Assembly: GCF_947487805.1 (NCBI RefSeq)
Contig: NZ_CANKXW010000001.1
Location: 999,580 to 1,063,579, forward strand
DNA: 64,000 nt
Direction of reading: 5' to 3'
DNA from: an uncultured Tateyamaria sp.
GTDB taxonomy: Bacteria; Pseudomonadota; Alphaproteobacteria; Rhodobacterales; Rhodobacteraceae
Shown in pieces: positions 29,282 to 37,155 of the stretch. A program made the translations under genes and the position numbers. Numbering within the stretch: the first letter of the stretch is position 1; every line of letters starts with the position of its first letter. The notes under the pieces are model-generated. The model did no database searches. It was given only the letters and a program-made list of their open reading frames with translations, and was not told where the DNA came from.

Positions 29282-29947
29282 TTACTGTTCTGTCCGCAGA
29301 TCGGCGCCGGTGATGCCGGACAATTGCGTTTCGGCCCGTGCCGATGCCACATAGTCGCGATAGATGATCTGGGCATATTTGCCGTCGAGAACGGTGGGGT
29401 GCGATTTCACGAAACCGCTCACCTCTGTGACCGTGCGCCGGTTGCGCCGCTCGCGGCCTTGGGTAACGATCAAGGGTTGGGTTTCGCCAAAGGACGCGAC
29501 GGCTTCGAGCCGCGACCGGCTGATGCCACGTGTCGTCAGATAGTGCACAACCGCCTGCGCGCGTGCGAGGCCCAGACGCTTGTTGTAGGTGTTGGACCCC
29601 ACCGCATCGGTGTGACCATAGACCCGGAAACGGATTTCGGGGAACTGACGGATCCACTGCGCCTGCTGGTTCAGGGCGTCGCGCGCCCCGGCGTCCAGCG
29701 TCGACGAATTGAATGCGAAATTGACCGTCGTGATCACCTCGGATGCAAAGCGGTTCGCAAGATCAAAGGTATATTGCCGCTCGCCCGTCAGGATCAGCGT
29801 GTTGTTGGCCGTCGCGTTGCCGAATTGGCCGGTGTCTACCAGCGATCCAGCCTCGCGGTAGAATTGGGTGTAGACCGGGTCGCTGGACGGCGCGCACGCG
29901 CCAAGCGCGATGCTGCTTGCCAATGCGACTGAGATGATCGGTTTCAT
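29282..29947 (-). CDS. OmpA-family lipoprotein in the Tad cluster
   Basis: A 221-residue lipoprotein with lipobox LGAC (Cys18) and an OmpA peptidoglycan-binding domain: VNFAFNSSTLDAGARDALN, then RVYGHTDAVGSNTYNKRLGL ending at RNRRTVTEVSGFV. It sits between the secretin gene cpaC (10 bp upstream) and cpaE, where Caulobacter-type clusters carry cpaD. It probably tethers the secretin to peptidoglycan. The ATG at 29947 gives a proper lipoprotein leader. Confidence 0.88.
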   Translation of the reverse strand: MKPIISVALASSIALGACAPSSDPVYTQFYREAGSLVDTGQFGNATANNTLILTGERQYTFDLANRFASEVITTVNFAFNSSTLDAGARDALNQQAQWIRQFPEIRFRVYGHTDAVGSNTYNKRLGLARAQAVVHYLTTRGISRSRLEAVASFGETQPLIVTQGRERRNRRTVTEVSGFVKSHPTVLDGKYAQIIYRDYVASARAETQLSGITGADLRTEQ

Positions 29948-29957
29948 GACCCTGTCC

Positions 29958-31388
29958 TTAATCCAACACGTAACCATATGAGCCGGAGAAGTCCTGTTTG
30001 GCAACCTCGCCCGCAGCCCCGGTTCTGGGCGCGCGCGTTCCGGCGGCTGTTCGACCGTACAGGAACAAATCCTTTTCGGTCGGTGGCTTGATACGGTCGG
30101 TGGGCAGCGCCAGCACGTCGCCGCGCACCGGCGACACCAGATGTGCGGTGATGATGATCACCAGTTCGGTCTGATTCCGTTGGTAAGACGCGGAACGGAA
30201 CAGGGCGCCCAGTACAGGCACGTCACCCAACCAAGGCAACTGGCTGGAATTGTCGTCAAAGTTGTCTTCAAGCAGGCCCGCAATCGCAAAGCTCTCGCCG
30301 TCGCGCATTTCCACGGTGGTCGAGGTCTCGCGCCGCGAGAAGGCGTCGATCTCAAAACCATTCACGGCAAACCCGTTGGTCGGATCGATCGCCGACACGG
30401 CCGCTTCGAGTTCGAGGTTGATCAGGTCCTTGTCCACCACGCGGGGGATAAAGTTGAGTTCGATCCCGAATGGCTTGAATTCGATGGTGATGACGCCGTT
30501 GTCCTGGCTGACCGGGACGGGATATTCACCGCCTGCGAGGAACTTGGCCTCTTGCCCGGACAGGGCAACGAGGTTGGGTTCGGCCAAGGTGCGAACAACG
30601 CCTTTGGTTTCAAGGGCTTCCAACAGAAGGCCCACTTGCGTGTTGCCCGCGCTGAAGCCAAAAAGGATGGCGCCGGTGTTCTCATTGGTCGCCGGGACGT
30701 TGCCGCTCAGGCTGTTTGCGACGCTGCCGGATGCGTTCGTGGTGCCGGTACCGCCGTTCACGCCCACATCTCCCGAGAAGATCGAGCCATTCAAGGACAG
30801 CGAAGAGCTGAGGGACTTGGACACCGTGCGGTTCATTTCGGCAAACCGCACCTTGAGCATGACCTGCTGCACGCCGCCGACGCTCATCAGGTTGGACACC
30901 CGCCCTTCGGCGTAGCGTTCGGCCAGATCCAGGGCGCGTTGCAACCGTGCCGCAGAAGAGACAACCCCCGACAGCACAATGCCGTCATTGGCGGTGCGGA
31001 CTTCGATCTTTTCGCCGGGCAGGATCTGGCGCAGACGTTCCTTGAATTCGGAAATGTCCGCTGCAACGCGTACGTTGACGTTCGTAATCAAACGTCCGTT
31101 CGCATCCAGCAGGGTCAGTGTTGTCAACCCCGGCGACTTGCCCAGAACATAGATCGTCCGGTCACTCAGCGACGAGATGTCTGCAATGGCCGGGTTTGCG
31201 ATGCTGAGTTCCGCAAAGGGCGTATCGCTTTCGACAACGACCGCGCGGTTCATCGGAACGCTGAGCGTCGATTCGGTTGCCTTTCTCACCACGCGCAGGT
31301 TGTTTGCCTCGGCAGAGGTCAACGCGAGCGGGCTTACGGCAAGAGACAACCCAAGCAGGGCTGCTTTGAAAATACCATCAATGTTCAT
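29958..31388 (-). CDS. cpaC: CpaC/RcpA, outer-membrane secretin of the Tad pilus
   Basis: A 476-residue secretin. The signal peptide (residues 1-29) is followed by a pilus-assembly N-domain (SDTPFAELSIANPAIADISS), a BON-like domain (VRTANDGIVLSGVVSSAARL) and the secretin core (GVQQVMLKVRFAEMNRTVSK, then the gate and LPWLGDVPVLGALFRS). It forms the outer-membrane channel for the Flp fibre. ATG at 31388 has GGCAGGT upstream; a GTG at 31409 in frame is less likely. It lies 197 bp from cpaB. Confidence 0.94.
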   Translation of the reverse strand: MNIDGIFKAALLGLSLAVSPLALTSAEANNLRVVRKATESTLSVPMNRAVVVESDTPFAELSIANPAIADISSLSDRTIYVLGKSPGLTTLTLLDANGRLITNVNVRVAADISEFKERLRQILPGEKIEVRTANDGIVLSGVVSSAARLQRALDLAERYAEGRVSNLMSVGGVQQVMLKVRFAEMNRTVSKSLSSSLSLNGSIFSGDVGVNGGTGTTNASGSVANSLSGNVPATNENTGAILFGFSAGNTQVGLLLEALETKGVVRTLAEPNLVALSGQEAKFLAGGEYPVPVSQDNGVITIEFKPFGIELNFIPRVVDKDLINLELEAAVSAIDPTNGFAVNGFEIDAFSRRETSTTVEMRDGESFAIAGLLEDNFDDNSSQLPWLGDVPVLGALFRSASYQRNQTELVIIITAHLVSPVRGDVLALPTDRIKPPTEKDLFLYGRTAAGTRAPRTGAAGEVAKQDFSGSYGYVLD

Positions 31389-31534
31389 GTGACCTGCCTT
31401 TTTGATCACGCCTCGGGGGCGGGTCTACGTGCCCGCAATTGTCACCACTGTGGGGCAGTTTCGATTTTTTTGCAAGAATCAATGACTTCAGGCGATTCGT
31501 TTATGTGGATAACCAGCAACAGGTCACGACGAAA

Positions 31535-31562
31535 CCGGCGCCACCTTGGGGGGTGACGCCGG
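31535..31562 (-). terminator. possible hairpin terminator after cpaB
   Basis: CCGGCGTCACC and GGTGGCGCCGG arms with one mismatch around a C-rich loop, followed on the minus strand by TTTCG. It lies 23 bp past the cpaB stop. The T-run is weak, so read-through into cpaC is likely. Confidence 0.4.
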
Positions 31563-31585
31563 GGTAAGCCGTTGAATTGCAGGGA

Positions 31586-32443
31586 TCAGTTGGTGCAGGG
31601 GATCGGGATTTCGACCACCTCGGCACCGCGCCGTGTGCGGATGGAACAGATTTGTTCCTTTTGCACTTCGGCTTTGATCTCTTCGCGTTCGATGCCCAGA
31701 AGCGAGCGTTGGTCAACCTCGATGGATCCGGCAATCGTGTCATCCTCGGCACCCACCAGGGCCAGGGACAGACGGCCCGTCGACTGCGCCTGCGCCAAGG
31801 CAGCCACTTGCGCGGGTTGCACGGCCACGGTGACGGTCTGCGCAATGCGCGTTCCATCCAGATCACCGGCGGCATTCTGGTCGATGGCGATCAGCTTGAT
31901 ACCGGGCTGGATCAGCTTGGTCACTTCGCCGCGGTCCTGGCTCAGTGACTGGTCCACACGACCAGTCCAATAGACGTCCACGCGGTCACCGGGACGCAGG
32001 AAGCCCGACACGCCGGTGGCGACATCAACCTTGATCGCAAAGGCGCGCATGCCGCGTTCAAGACGCGACGTCAGGCCCGCTTCCTCGCCGGGCGCGGTCA
32101 CCTTGACCAGCAGCACGGCCTCGTCCTTTTCCATGGTACGCAGAACAACACGCGGGTCTGTCACACCTTCGGCAAAGAGGGGATTGTCTTCGGTAAAGGC
32201 GCCCTCGGGAATGGCGTTTTCAGGCCAGTCCACGGTGCGGACATCTTCCATCGTCAGCTCTTCGCCGTATTTCAGCAGACGATCAGCAACGTAGACCGGG
32301 ATCGTCGGCACAATCTTTTCGCGCTGCGCACGTTCCTTTGCCAGCGCCGTCTGATACTGCCCAATGTAGTTTTTCGCCATGTAAACGGCACCACCGGCCA
32401 GGGCGATCCCGGCAAGTAAAACCAATCCAAATACCATACGCAT
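31586..32443 (-). CDS. cpaB: CpaB/RcpC, Flp pilus assembly protein
   Basis: A 285-residue protein with an N-terminal membrane anchor (MRMVFGLVLLAGIALAGGAV) and an SAF domain (about residues 45-125, with VPTIPVYVADRLLKYGEELT), followed by the RcpC-type C-terminal domain (RAFAIKVDVATGVSGFLRPG, DRVDVYWTG). CpaB is a periplasmic stabiliser of the secretin. ATG at 32443 follows AGAGGTGCTGA. The frame is open upstream for 47 codons but the composition there is that of non-coding sequence. Confidence 0.93.
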   Translation of the reverse strand: MRMVFGLVLLAGIALAGGAVYMAKNYIGQYQTALAKERAQREKIVPTIPVYVADRLLKYGEELTMEDVRTVDWPENAIPEGAFTEDNPLFAEGVTDPRVVLRTMEKDEAVLLVKVTAPGEEAGLTSRLERGMRAFAIKVDVATGVSGFLRPGDRVDVYWTGRVDQSLSQDRGEVTKLIQPGIKLIAIDQNAAGDLDGTRIAQTVTVAVQPAQVAALAQAQSTGRLSLALVGAEDDTIAGSIEVDQRSLLGIEREEIKAEVQKEQICSIRTRRGAEVVEIPIPCTN

Positions 32444-32582
32444 TTCAGCACCTCTTTGTTGGGCCCTTGCACCGGAAGGGTGGGAGCCTCTCGCGATCCT
32501 TGTGACCGCAGATTGTGGCGAATTCAGGGAGCGGGTGGGGTCGTACCGGGGCAACGGCGCCCGCGCAGAGCCCGCAAATGCC

Positions 32583-32604
32583 AAAACCCCGGCAGGACCG
32601 GGGT
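32583..32604 (-). terminator. rho-independent terminator after the first-listed flp gene
   Basis: On the minus strand ACCCCGG, TCCTG, CCGGGGTTTTGG: a 7-bp GC stem and a short T-run, 40 bp past the stop of the pilin gene at 32644. It would separate abundant pilin mRNA from the assembly genes. Confidence 0.65.
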
Positions 32605-34292: not shown

Positions 34293-34583
34293 TCAGACGT
34301 TGAATGCGTCCGCCCATTCCGGATGGCGCCTGCGCTGTGCATTCACAAAGGGGCAGAGCGGCACAATCTTCCAGCCTTCGGCGCGCGCATCCTCGACCAG
34401 ACGCGTGACCAGTGCCAGACCGGCGCCCGTGCCACGCAGCGCGTCGGGCACCCCGGTGTGATCCGCGATGCGGGTCCGGGGTGACAAGATGGAATAGGTC
34501 AGTTCTGCCTCGACCCCGTCGGAGGTCAGCACATAGCGCCCCTTGGTGTCCCCGTCCTCGCGCGAGATGTCGAAGCCGGGCAT
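34293..34583 (-). CDS. small GNAT-type N-acetyltransferase (YidJ/COG2388-like)
   Basis: A 96-residue single-domain protein with the acetyl-CoA loop VPDALRGTGAGLALVTRLVE and the C-terminal PLCPFVNAQRRRHPEW, the hallmark of the short COG2388 acetyltransferase group. It starts 4 bp after the scoB stop and is the last gene of the scoA-LOV-scoB operon. Its substrate is unknown. Confidence 0.85.
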   Translation of the reverse strand: MPGFDISREDGDTKGRYVLTSDGVEAELTYSILSPRTRIADHTGVPDALRGTGAGLALVTRLVEDARAEGWKIVPLCPFVNAQRRRHPEWADAFNV

Positions 34584-34587
34584 GAGG

Positions 34588-35214
34588 TTAAACCAGCGTT
34601 GCCTGCGTGGCCGCGCGCAATTCGTCTTCGGTCACGCCATCGGCGGTTTCGACGATCTTGAGACCGCCCTCAACCACGTCCAGAACACCCAGATTGGTGA
34701 TGATGCGATCCACGACGCCCTGACCGGTCAGCGGCAGGGTGCATTCCTTGAGCACCTTGCTGTCGCCGTGCTTGTTGGTGTGGTCCATGACCACGACCAC
34801 CCGGCCCACACCGGCGACCAGATCCATCGCGCCGCCCATGCCCTTGACCAGCTTGCCCGGGATCATCCAGTTCGCCAGATCACCGTTCTCGGCCACTTCC
34901 ATCGCGCCGAGGATCGCCATCGCGATCTTGCCGCCACGGATCATGCCAAAGCTTTGCGCGCTGTCGAAATAGGCTGTCTGCGGCAATTCGGTAATAGTCT
35001 GCTTGCCGGCATTGATCAGATCGGCGTCTTCGGTGCCCTCAACCGGAAACGGACCCATGCCCAACATGCCGTTTTCGGATTGCAGCGTCACCTCGATCCC
35101 CTCGGGGATATAGTTCGACACCAGCGTCGGAATCCCGATGCCGAGGTTCACGTACCAGCCGTCTTCGAGTTCCTGTGCGGCCCGCGCGGCCATTTGATTG
35201 CGATCCCAAGGCAT
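34588..35214 (-). CDS. scoB: 3-oxoacid CoA-transferase subunit B
   Basis: A 208-residue beta subunit of the SCOT/AtoA family, transferring CoA between succinyl-CoA and 3-oxoacids such as acetoacetate. The catalytic Glu47 lies in [12 protein letters not shown], and the family start [17 protein letters not shown] is clear. It needs ScoA, whose gene is 1.05 kb upstream, separated by a LOV-kinase gene. A strong AAGGAAG ribosome site overlaps the end of the LOV gene (9 bp gap). Confidence 0.94.
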
Positions 35215-35223
35215 CGGTCTTCC

Positions 35224-36252
35224 TTATTCGTCTACAAGTGTCGCGCCCGCAGGCACGTCGATGGTGATAAAACTGCCAGCGGCACCCCGGCCCAGATGCA
35301 AGGTGCCTTCCAGCCCCTCGATCAACCCGGACACGATGCGGCCACCCATGGTGCGCGGATCGGGCCAATCCATGTCCTGCGGCACGCCAACGCCGTCATC
35401 CGACACGATCAGGCGCAAACCGCCCGCGCTCAGGCGGCTCATCCGAACCTCGACCAGCCCGTTTTCGATGCGGTCGAACGCATGTTGGAACGCGTTTGTC
35501 AAAAGTTCCGACAGGACCAGACCCACACGCGTCGCGGTCTCGATCGGCACTTCGAGCGGTTCGACCTGAAGCGACAGGCGGATACCCGAGCGCCCTTCAA
35601 CATGGGCAATGGCCGCAGCAAGGCGTGACAGGTAGCTGCCCATCTGGATGCTGTCTCGGTTGGACTGCTGATCCGACAGCTTCATTTCCTCATAAAGCAG
35701 TTGCAGCGTCTCGATCCGGCGGCTCAGTGCGGCAAAATCTTCCGGCACGGATGTCGCGCCGGTCTGCTGGCGGATCATGCCGATGATCATCGACAGGTCC
35801 GAGGCCACACGATTCTGGATCTCGATCAGTTGCGAATGCACCTCTTCGGTGCTGGTCGACATCTCGCCGTGGCGCAGCTCTTTCTGAATGCCCACGAAAT
35901 ACCGGGTGTGGCCGCTGTCGTCCGCCACCGGTGCCACGATCAGCCGATTCACGAACGGCTCGCCATTGGCGCGGTAGTTCAGGATGTCGACGCTCACGCT
36001 CTCTTCGGCTTCGATACCGGCGCGCAACTTGTCCACATCGGATTTCTTTGTGCCTTCGCCTTGCAGGAACCGACAATTTCGCCCGATGGACGCCGACCGG
36101 GCATAGCCGGTGGACCGCGTGAACGCCTGGTTCACGTAGACAATCGGATTGTCATCCAGATGCGGGTTCGTGACGATCATCGCGATCTGCGCCCGAGAGA
36201 ACCCCTCAAAGCTTTTGTCGTCGTCCAGCAGTTGTTCGATGGTGTCAGGCAT
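35224..36252 (-). CDS. LOV-domain sensor protein with HisKA_2/HWE-type kinase module
   Basis: A 342-residue cytosolic photoreceptor-like protein. The LOV domain (about residues 14-126) has the photoactive Cys60 in GRNCRFLQGEGT plus the flavin-contacting Asn92, Asn102 and Gln123 (FVGIQ). A linker and H-box region follow (about 136-165), then a HATPase domain (about 225-335) with N-box ELLTNAFQHAF, G1 VSDDGVGVP and G2 SGLIEGLEG. In the usual H-box the motif is HRVKN; here it is QNRVASDL, so the phospho-acceptor is Asn147. It lies between scoA (11 bp) and scoB (9 bp), with AAGGAG upstream of its ATG, and is surely co-transcribed with both. Confidence 0.93.
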   Translation of the reverse strand: MPDTIEQLLDDDKSFEGFSRAQIAMIVTNPHLDDNPIVYVNQAFTRSTGYARSASIGRNCRFLQGEGTKKSDVDKLRAGIEAEESVSVDILNYRANGEPFVNRLIVAPVADDSGHTRYFVGIQKELRHGEMSTSTEEVHSQLIEIQNRVASDLSMIIGMIRQQTGATSVPEDFAALSRRIETLQLLYEEMKLSDQQSNRDSIQMGSYLSRLAAAIAHVEGRSGIRLSLQVEPLEVPIETATRVGLVLSELLTNAFQHAFDRIENGLVEVRMSRLSAGGLRLIVSDDGVGVPQDMDWPDPRTMGGRIVSGLIEGLEGTLHLGRGAAGSFITIDVPAGATLVDE

Positions 36253-36263
36253 GGCCTGGCTCC

Positions 36264-36959
36264 TTACGCGGCGCGGGTTGTTCTCTGTTCGATGCGCTTT
36301 TCATGTTCGCCCTTGATCAGGCGATGGACATAGATACCGGGCAGGTGGATGTGGTCGGGGTCCAGGCTGCCGGTTGGAACGATTTCTTCGACTTCGACAA
36401 CACAGACCTTACCACACATCGCCGCAGGCGGGTTGAAATTTCGCGCAGTCTTGCGGAAAATCAGGTTGCCGGTCTCGTCGGCCTTCCACGCCTTGACAAT
36501 GGACAGATCGGCAAAGATGCCTTCTTCCATGATATACGTCTCGCCGTTGAATTCCTTGTGCTCCTTGCCGTCGGCAATGACCGTGCCAACGCCCGTCTTG
36601 GTGTAAAAGCCAGGGATGCCGCAGCCGCCCGCACGCATCCGTTCTGCCAGCGTGCCCTGCGGGTTGAACTCCAGTTCAAGCTCGCCCGACAGGTACTGAC
36701 GCATGAACTCGGCATTCTCACCGACATAGGACGAGATCATCTTCTTGACCTGACGGGTCTGCAACAGGATGCCAATGCCGAAATCATCCACGCCCGCATT
36801 GTTAGACGCAAAGGTCAGGTCCTTTGTGCCCGCGTCCTTGATCGCGTCCAGCAACAGTTCGGGGATACCACACAGGCCAAAGCCACCCGCAGCAATAAAC
36901 ATTCCGTCAAACAGCAAACCGTCCAGCGCCTCAGCGGCGGACCCATAGATCTTTTTCAT
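36264..36959 (-). CDS. scoA: 3-oxoacid CoA-transferase subunit A
   Basis: A 231-residue alpha subunit of the SCOT family ([20 protein letters not shown], then [19 protein letters not shown] and [17 protein letters not shown]). With ScoB it activates acetoacetate or similar 3-oxoacids. ATG at 36959 follows GAGGGTGCGC; a GTG at 36971 adds four residues without family similarity. It is the first gene of the four-gene operon scoA / LOV / scoB / GNAT. Confidence 0.94.
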
Positions 36960-37155
36960 GCGCACCCTCAAGCAACCTGCGAACAGGTAATCTCACTTCT
37001 GGTAAAATATGTGACGCCAACCGGGTGCAAAGTCAACGCAAGCGCCCGCGCCGACGCCAGTTAACGCCTGTCTAACAGCGCTTTGGGGATATAGTGCAAA
37101 CTGGCCCATGATGCGGGTCAAACAGCCCGGCAAACGCGGGCTGTTCCAAGGGGCA

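Follow-up and report, generated by a model that had tools for sequence, protein, structure and literature searches.

A LOV histidine kinase homologue lacking the acceptor histidine is a probable LdaP orthologue in a relative of Tateyamaria

Introduction

What does a homologue of a light-sensing histidine kinase do once the histidine that accepts the phosphate has gone? The question is raised by a gene in a 64,000-nucleotide stretch of DNA from an uncultured Tateyamaria sp. (contig NZ_CANKXW010000001.1), hereafter called the window. A first-pass annotation, made from the letters alone, noted that the LOV-domain protein encoded there carries Asn147 at the acceptor position, and suggested that it might be a pseudokinase that regulates partners by binding, or might use the nearby His139 instead. 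The comparisons described below indicate that the protein is most probably an orthologue of LdaP, belongs to an aerobic anoxygenic phototroph near Tateyamaria, and acts by protein contact.

Gene and domain architecture

The open reading frame runs on the minus strand from 36252 to 35224, from ATG to TAA, and specifies 342 amino acids; the strand was absent from the first-pass annotation. Pfam recognizes PAS_9 (1e-16), HATPase_c_2 (7.5e-8), HATPase_c (3.4e-7), and HisKA_2 (4.9e-5) in the protein. All four scores exceed the gathering score, HisKA_2 barely so (23.8 vs 22.3 bits), and the NCBIfam blue-light histidine kinase models match the protein only below their cut-offs.

Among proteins of solved structure the closest is EL346 (PDB 4r3a; phmmer E = 4.6e-88), a monomeric LOV histidine kinase from Erythrobacter litoralis, with homology over nearly the whole length (residues 16-336). 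A predicted structure of middling confidence (mean pLDDT 75.6), which served for fold identity and for the helix around residues 139-147 only, likewise resembles EL346 best in fold (E 2.1e-32; TM over the query 0.68). However, EL346 is an active light-driven kinase with H142 as acceptor, and the window protein lacks that histidine.

The LOV cysteine and the N, G1, and G2 boxes had been read as intact, and they are: the codon for Cys60 is TGT, and the residues typical of EL346-type boxes (E249, N253, D286, G287, G289, G303, and G304) are all present (Table 1). Two neighbouring arginines are candidates for the R-box: across 34 aligned sequences R179 never varies and R178 hardly does. An R-box arginine, and a Glu that replaces the first Asn of the N-box, have been named as features of HWE/HisKA2 kinases (PMC12148442).

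Table 1. Positions of the ldaP-like gene, its key codons, and adjoining genes in the window
Feature	Position	Strand	Basis
scoA-like, 3-oxoacid CoA-transferase subunit A, first in nest	36264..36971	-	Pfam CoA_trans 3.6e-73, TIGR02429
ldaP-like gene, LOV + HisKA_2 (DHp-like) + HATPase (CA), without acceptor His	35224..36252	-	Pfam, EL346 alignment, probable LdaP orthology
LOV photo-adduct Cys60 codon TGT (GRNCRFLQ)	36073..36075	-	Cys in 60/60 distinct His-less rows
His139 codon, proposed alternative acceptor	35836..35838	-	His in 2/60 distinct His-less rows
Asn147 codon AAT at phospho-acceptor position	35812..35814	-	EL346 alignment; 60 His-less rows N30 S15 D10 R2 A1 G1 E1
Asp152 codon, typical of His-less clade	35797..35799	-	Asp in 58/60 His-less rows; His in 23/23 near His-kept
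N-box ELLTNAFQHAF, residues 249-259	35476..35508	-	His-less rows: E249 60/60, N253 59/60, H257 59/60
G1 box DDGVG, residues 285-289	35386..35400	-	D285, D286, G287 60/60 each; G289 59/60
G2 box GGRI, residues 303-306	35335..35346	-	G303 59/60, G304 60/60
scoB-like, 3-oxoacid CoA-transferase subunit B	34588..35214	-	Pfam CoA_trans 1.8e-45, TIGR02428
Small GNAT-type acetyltransferase, fourth gene of run	34293..34583	-	Pfam Acetyltransf_CG 7.5e-24

The acceptor position in the protein and its relatives

In the phmmer alignment to EL346 (4r3a), EIQNRVASDLSMIIGMIR lies over EVQHRVKNHLAMIVSMIR. Thus, N147 falls on the histidine of the EL346 H-box (EVQHRVKN), H142 being the verified acceptor of that kinase (PMC10890935). 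Alignment with a known LOV histidine kinase therefore bears out the claim that asparagine (AAT) stands in place of the acceptor, a feature in which the window protein departs from active EL346-type kinases.

Relatives were collected in two sets. The family sample comprises 394 genomes from 393 genera (about one genome per genus), 42 of which have a match at E<=1e-30. The second set consists of 48 loci from named genomes, found by means of peptides of the window protein. Two loci were left out before counting, L002 (a 26% match elsewhere in the window's own genome) and L080 (a PpsR), and the 94 homologues, the window's own counted, became 87 distinct ones once seven identical proteins had been dropped. 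Up to five first-look candidates per genome were scored for the homologue, up to four for PpsR, and up to five for PufM; "absent" means no match among those. Beyond the family, a sample of 289 genomes from the class (E<=1e-40, up to seven candidates scored in each) gave the window's own protein as the sole match. EL346 itself comes from Erythrobacter, which is outside the family, and the class sample leaves room for other relatives.

The first-pass annotation had proposed inspecting relatives for N versus H at this position. The acceptor column is without His in 60 of the 87 distinct relatives (the window's own included) and has His in 27, a ratio that is no population frequency because the way in which the named loci were found favours close relatives. 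The family sample is without this lean, and 19 of its 46 matches are His-less. Loss extends to the rest of the HRVKN motif: K150 and N151 are each present in 23/23 near His-kept relatives and are unconstrained in the His-less set. This and the other residue contrasts, like the entropies given below, use the 23 near His-kept relatives that remain once the four most distant ones (L093-L096) are set aside.

Asparagine can serve in phosphatases. A phosphatase-type role for Asn147 was considered and set aside because the residue at the acceptor is so variable (N, S, D, R, A, G, or E).

With the H-box columns omitted, a tree of the 46 rows from the family sample places the 19 His-less ones in one clade (support 93/98), and a single change accounts for the state of the histidine on it. 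Support becomes 99/98 when six long or divergent rows are left out, one of them His-less (L082). The acceptor histidine was thus lost once, and the site then drifted freely. The earliest-branching pair within the clade, itself weakly joined (84/62), consists of L012 (R at the acceptor) and L030 (S). Because both still have His152, the acceptor seems to have gone before the rest of the H-box motif.

The nearest named relatives of the window protein are from Tateyamaria, and records in the His-less clade also come from Roseobacter, Sulfitobacter, Marivita, and other Rhodobacteraceae.

Relationship to LdaP of Dinoroseobacter shibae

One member of this clade has a described function. LdaP (Dshi_1135) of D. 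shibae is a LOV protein of 338 residues, 42% identical to EL346, that was reported in 2024 (PMC10890935). It has Arg148 at the acceptor position, and autophosphorylation was not found in the reported 32P or Phos-tag assays. A photocycle with a C61 adduct was described; LdaP was also found to contact the repressor PpsR and, in the dark only, to relieve repression of a bchF-lacZ reporter (PMC10890935). The same report notes that PpsR peptides co-purified in the light too, and that one two-hybrid fusion pairing with PpsR, and only that one, was positive (PMC10890935).

Locus L013 is D. shibae ldaP: it contains the published start primer and reverse mutagenesis primer without mismatch, and the last 20 bases of the C61A primer match with two mismatches, at the changed codon. 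In agreement with the published LdaP, its product has 338 amino acids, Cys61, and Arg148, the last in the column of N147. Its identity with the window protein is 57%, and that with its own closest His-kept relative 51%. Window protein and LdaP lie in the one clade apart from the His-kept kinases. They also share their domains, the LOV photo-adduct cysteine (Cys60 in the window protein), a non-His acceptor residue, the place of the gene between scoA and scoB, and a genome with PpsR and photosynthesis genes. The differences are the acceptor residue, Arg in LdaP and Asn here, the 57% identity, and the fact that function is known for D. shibae only.

This orthology strongly supports the proposal of a pseudokinase that regulates partners by binding, as LdaP does in D. 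shibae. The novelty implied by the first-pass annotation did not survive. A subgroup of EL346-like LOV histidine kinases without the acceptor His was noted in 2023 in a study of HWE kinases (PMC10359499), and the function is published for one species (PMC10890935), so both are known in kind. The available text of a 2025 review mentions LdaP for D. shibae alone (PMC12654162), and no study of LdaP in other genera was found by title or abstract among the open-licence matches listed. Within that literature, the new points are the assignment of the window protein to LdaP, the single loss of His with drift across genera, the conserved gene nest, and the contrast between H-box and ATP site. LdaP is thus no oddity of D. 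shibae but part of a pseudokinase clade of Rhodobacteraceae, nearly all members of which occur with photosynthesis genes where these were sought.

The scoA-scoB nest

The ldaP-like gene is nested between the genes for both subunits of a CoA-transferase, at 34293-36971 counting the GNAT gene. The run of scoA, ldaP, scoB, and GNAT is tight, with gaps of 11, 9, and 4 bp; the scoA-like reading frame is listed from a TTG, with a later ATG at 36959. The order scoA - gene - scoB is common to the window (L001) and the ldaP locus of D. shibae. It is also found in His-kept relatives, for example L014, L017, L019, L025, L026, L027, L031, and L081, and therefore probably predates the loss of His.

In a comparison limited to genes that adjoin ldaP in the window itself, those recognized in the conserved neighbourhood were topA, scoA, scoB, GNAT, SLT, dprA, and a MarR-like gene. 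At seven loci (L011, L051, L056, L057, L061, L063, and L078) the LOV gene is kept with no adjoining scoA or scoB match, and at L062 it is kept beside only a piece of scoA. Thus, retention of the photoreceptor seems independent of the adjoining CoA-transferase genes. Farther along the minus strand, at 29282-32584, are OmpA-like, secretin-like, and CpaB-like reading frames that look by eye like a Tad/Cpa-type pilus cluster.

Photosynthesis genes and PpsR

The window's genome encodes a PpsR (426 bits, over the curated cut-off) and has pufM. The ppsR gene is adjoined by a gene for a B12-binding, PpaA-like protein in the PpaA/AerR place, and bchG, bchP, and bchH are near. BLUF domains, which have a fold different from that of LOV, gave no match in the window's genome, so there is no sign there of AppA.

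The PpsR box TGT-N12-ACA, a pattern taken from PMC10890935, is overrepresented in each of two 18-kb stretches of the photosynthesis cluster (11 vs 2.4 expected and 10 vs 2.2 expected), counts that 0/200 shuffles of each stretch reached. In the window the same pattern occurs 10 times vs 8.1 expected, and the sites closest to the gene are at 31504 and 40989. There is thus no sign that PpsR controls the ldaP operon, a possibility that was considered.

Across the family sample, genomes with His-less forms have PufM in 19/19 cases and PpsR in 18/19, the one PpsR miss being a genome (G264) that is 77% complete. Genomes with only His-kept forms have PufM in 11/23 cases and PpsR in 13/23. Fisher tests of this difference give p = 1.3e-4 for PufM and p = 0.006 for PpsR, but because the His-less rows form one clade, the association amounts to a single event. 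PufM itself needs eight changes on the tree, and the independent-pairs comparison of His loss with PufM has one pair and thus no power. In the named set, at least seven of whose 48 proteins are identical to ones in the family sample, PpsR is present in 46/48 His-less genomes. PufM was sought in the two PpsR-miss genomes only, one of which has it and one of which has neither; at the cut-offs used, the L072 MAG shows neither PpsR nor PufM.

For a within-genus comparison of co-loss, the genus of G251 offers a single genome here, which leaves nothing to compare. Genome G240 belongs to the genus of the window's genome and has PpsR and PufM, yet none of the five scored candidates (of eight from the first look) matches the window protein at E<=1e-30. 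Its PpsR-type genes number two, and one of these is interrupted by an in-frame TAG; pufM is present as well.

A proposed mechanism and its alternatives

We propose that LdaP had as its ancestor a LOV histidine kinase of the EL346 type, in which the acceptor was lost once, and that it came to work through protein-protein contact instead. To judge from the intact motif, the window protein would bind FMN, and blue light would form an adduct between FMN and Cys60, as reported for LdaP (PMC10890935). The kinase-derived part may then relay the change without phosphotransfer, which would fit both the missing acceptor and the lack of autophosphorylation by LdaP. In the dark the protein would hold PpsR and so lift repression of the photosynthesis gene cluster, a step reported for LdaP; blue light would rearrange the kinase-like part and end this effect on PpsR. 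For this account the comparisons supply the sequence, the loss of His, the clade, the locus, and the PpsR and PufM genes of the window's genome. That the orthologue acts like LdaP, by PpsR contact and dark antirepression, we infer from this kinship.

Several other readings of a kinase without its acceptor were weighed. The gene could be a decaying pseudogene or the product of an assembly error, in that one catalytic residue is gone. However, the same loss in 60/87 distinct relatives, conserved across genera, a mean dN / mean dS of 0.063 (residues 5-337 in 13 close sequences; 74/78 pairs usable, dS near saturation), and retention of the LOV gene at the seven loci without adjoining scoA or scoB make this exceedingly improbable. 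Activity through another acceptor is hardly more credible. His139 is eight residues ahead of the acceptor and would be carried by the same predicted helix (H134-161), but position 139 is mostly N or R in His-less relatives, K150 and N151 are gone too, and LdaP is reported without autophosphorylation (PMC10890935). The proposal of His139 as a substitute acceptor was accordingly rejected.

Profile matches of the spIIAB and HATPase_c_2 type are common across the GHKL fold. The window protein has weak ones (spIIAB 24.7 bits, cut-off 135; HATPase_c_2), and these, with its intact ATP boxes, would suit a protein that binds ATP and phosphorylates another one, either the HisKA_2 His of a partner or a Ser/Thr target in the manner of SpoIIAB. 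But no two-component partner is among the genes recognized in the conserved neighbourhood, where the window's own neighbours were sought, and in the available text of the LdaP report no response regulator co-purified with LdaP (PMC10890935). We consider such phosphorylation in trans improbable. An LdaP orthologue that works by contact accounts for the observations best.

The ATP site after loss of the histidine

The H-box and the ATP site have fared differently. Positional entropy of the H-box is 1.29 bits in the His-less rows vs 0.23 in the near His-kept rows. Entropies of the His-less rows vs the near kinases are 0.54 vs 0.76 for the N-box, 0.35 vs 0.63 for G1, and 0.51 vs 0.70 for G2, values to be read against the fact that the His-less set consists of closer relatives (1.02 vs 1.67 for the whole CA domain). 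Key ATP-box residues are present in 59-60 of the 60 His-less rows. Thus, after loss of His the H-box is free and the ATP site fixed.

The contact mechanism might therefore be refined. The protein may be an antirepressor tuned by adenine nucleotides as well as light: as in NifL, the GHKL pocket would bind ATP or ADP and set the grip on the partner, so that PpsR would be switched by light and energy state together. We regard this as a tentative possibility. It would fit ATP boxes that are no looser than in kinases while the H-box is loose, and the presence of their key residues in nearly all His-less rows. In the NifL of Azotobacter vinelandii, GHKL-bound ADP stabilizes the NifL-NifA complex (PMC9866876), and the predicted model resembles that complex weakly in fold (9qq6; rank 25, TM 0.29). 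However, conservation of the boxes may serve folding alone, and the main text of the LdaP report has "ATP binding" or "ATP-binding" once, about ClpX (PMC10890935). Klebsiella NifL is without those nucleotide features (PMC9866876).

Locus L082 (genome G230) is His-less and has also lost the N-box Asn and one Gly each of G1 and G2, yet its genome keeps PpsR and PufM. With the boxes altered in this way, the nucleotide may be dispensable at least there.

By a bolder analogy, and with slightly less confidence, the whole LdaP family could be a light-gated counterpart of NifL, in which a nearly invariant ATP pocket would sense ATP/ADP and place PpsR under both blue light and energy charge. If so, aerobic anoxygenic photosynthesis would be set by one stoichiometric switch free of phosphotransfer.

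Comparison with other systems

NifL of A. vinelandii resembles the proposed system in that it has a flavin PAS sensor and a GHKL part and controls a DNA-binding partner by contact. It belongs to another family, has NifA as partner, retains the conserved H-domain His (PMC9866876), and responds to redox rather than through LOV; the likeness is one of analogy, not membership. DivL, a pseudo-histidine kinase of Caulobacter, has its acceptor His replaced and its kinase motifs kept and acts by binding (PMC4211667). However, its acceptor residue is Tyr, its partner is DivK~P, its ATP binding is weak, and no LOV domain is described for it in the available text (PMC4211667). AppA also places PpsR under blue-light control by contact (PMC10890935), but does so with a BLUF domain. 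D. shibae is stated to be without AppA (PMC10890935), as the window's genome is without a BLUF match.

From domain content alone, such proteins are easily annotated as histidine kinases. This happened to Dshi_1135 (PMC10890935), which a 2015 paper lists as a LOV histidine kinase (PMC4335406). As natural variants of a histidine kinase fold without phosphotransfer, the clade offers proteins whose acceptor residue is N, S, D, R, A, G, or E, as well as a member whose ATP boxes are altered.

Residues that mark the His-less clade

Shortly past the N-box, codon 262 (35467-35469) encodes Arg in 21/23 near kinases and L, I, or M in 58/60 His-less rows, a change that is perhaps tied to the loss of catalysis. 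Other residues that mark the clade include G17, F18, E125, D152, L192, D194, A324, and A325, and these may be regarded as candidates for contact with PpsR.
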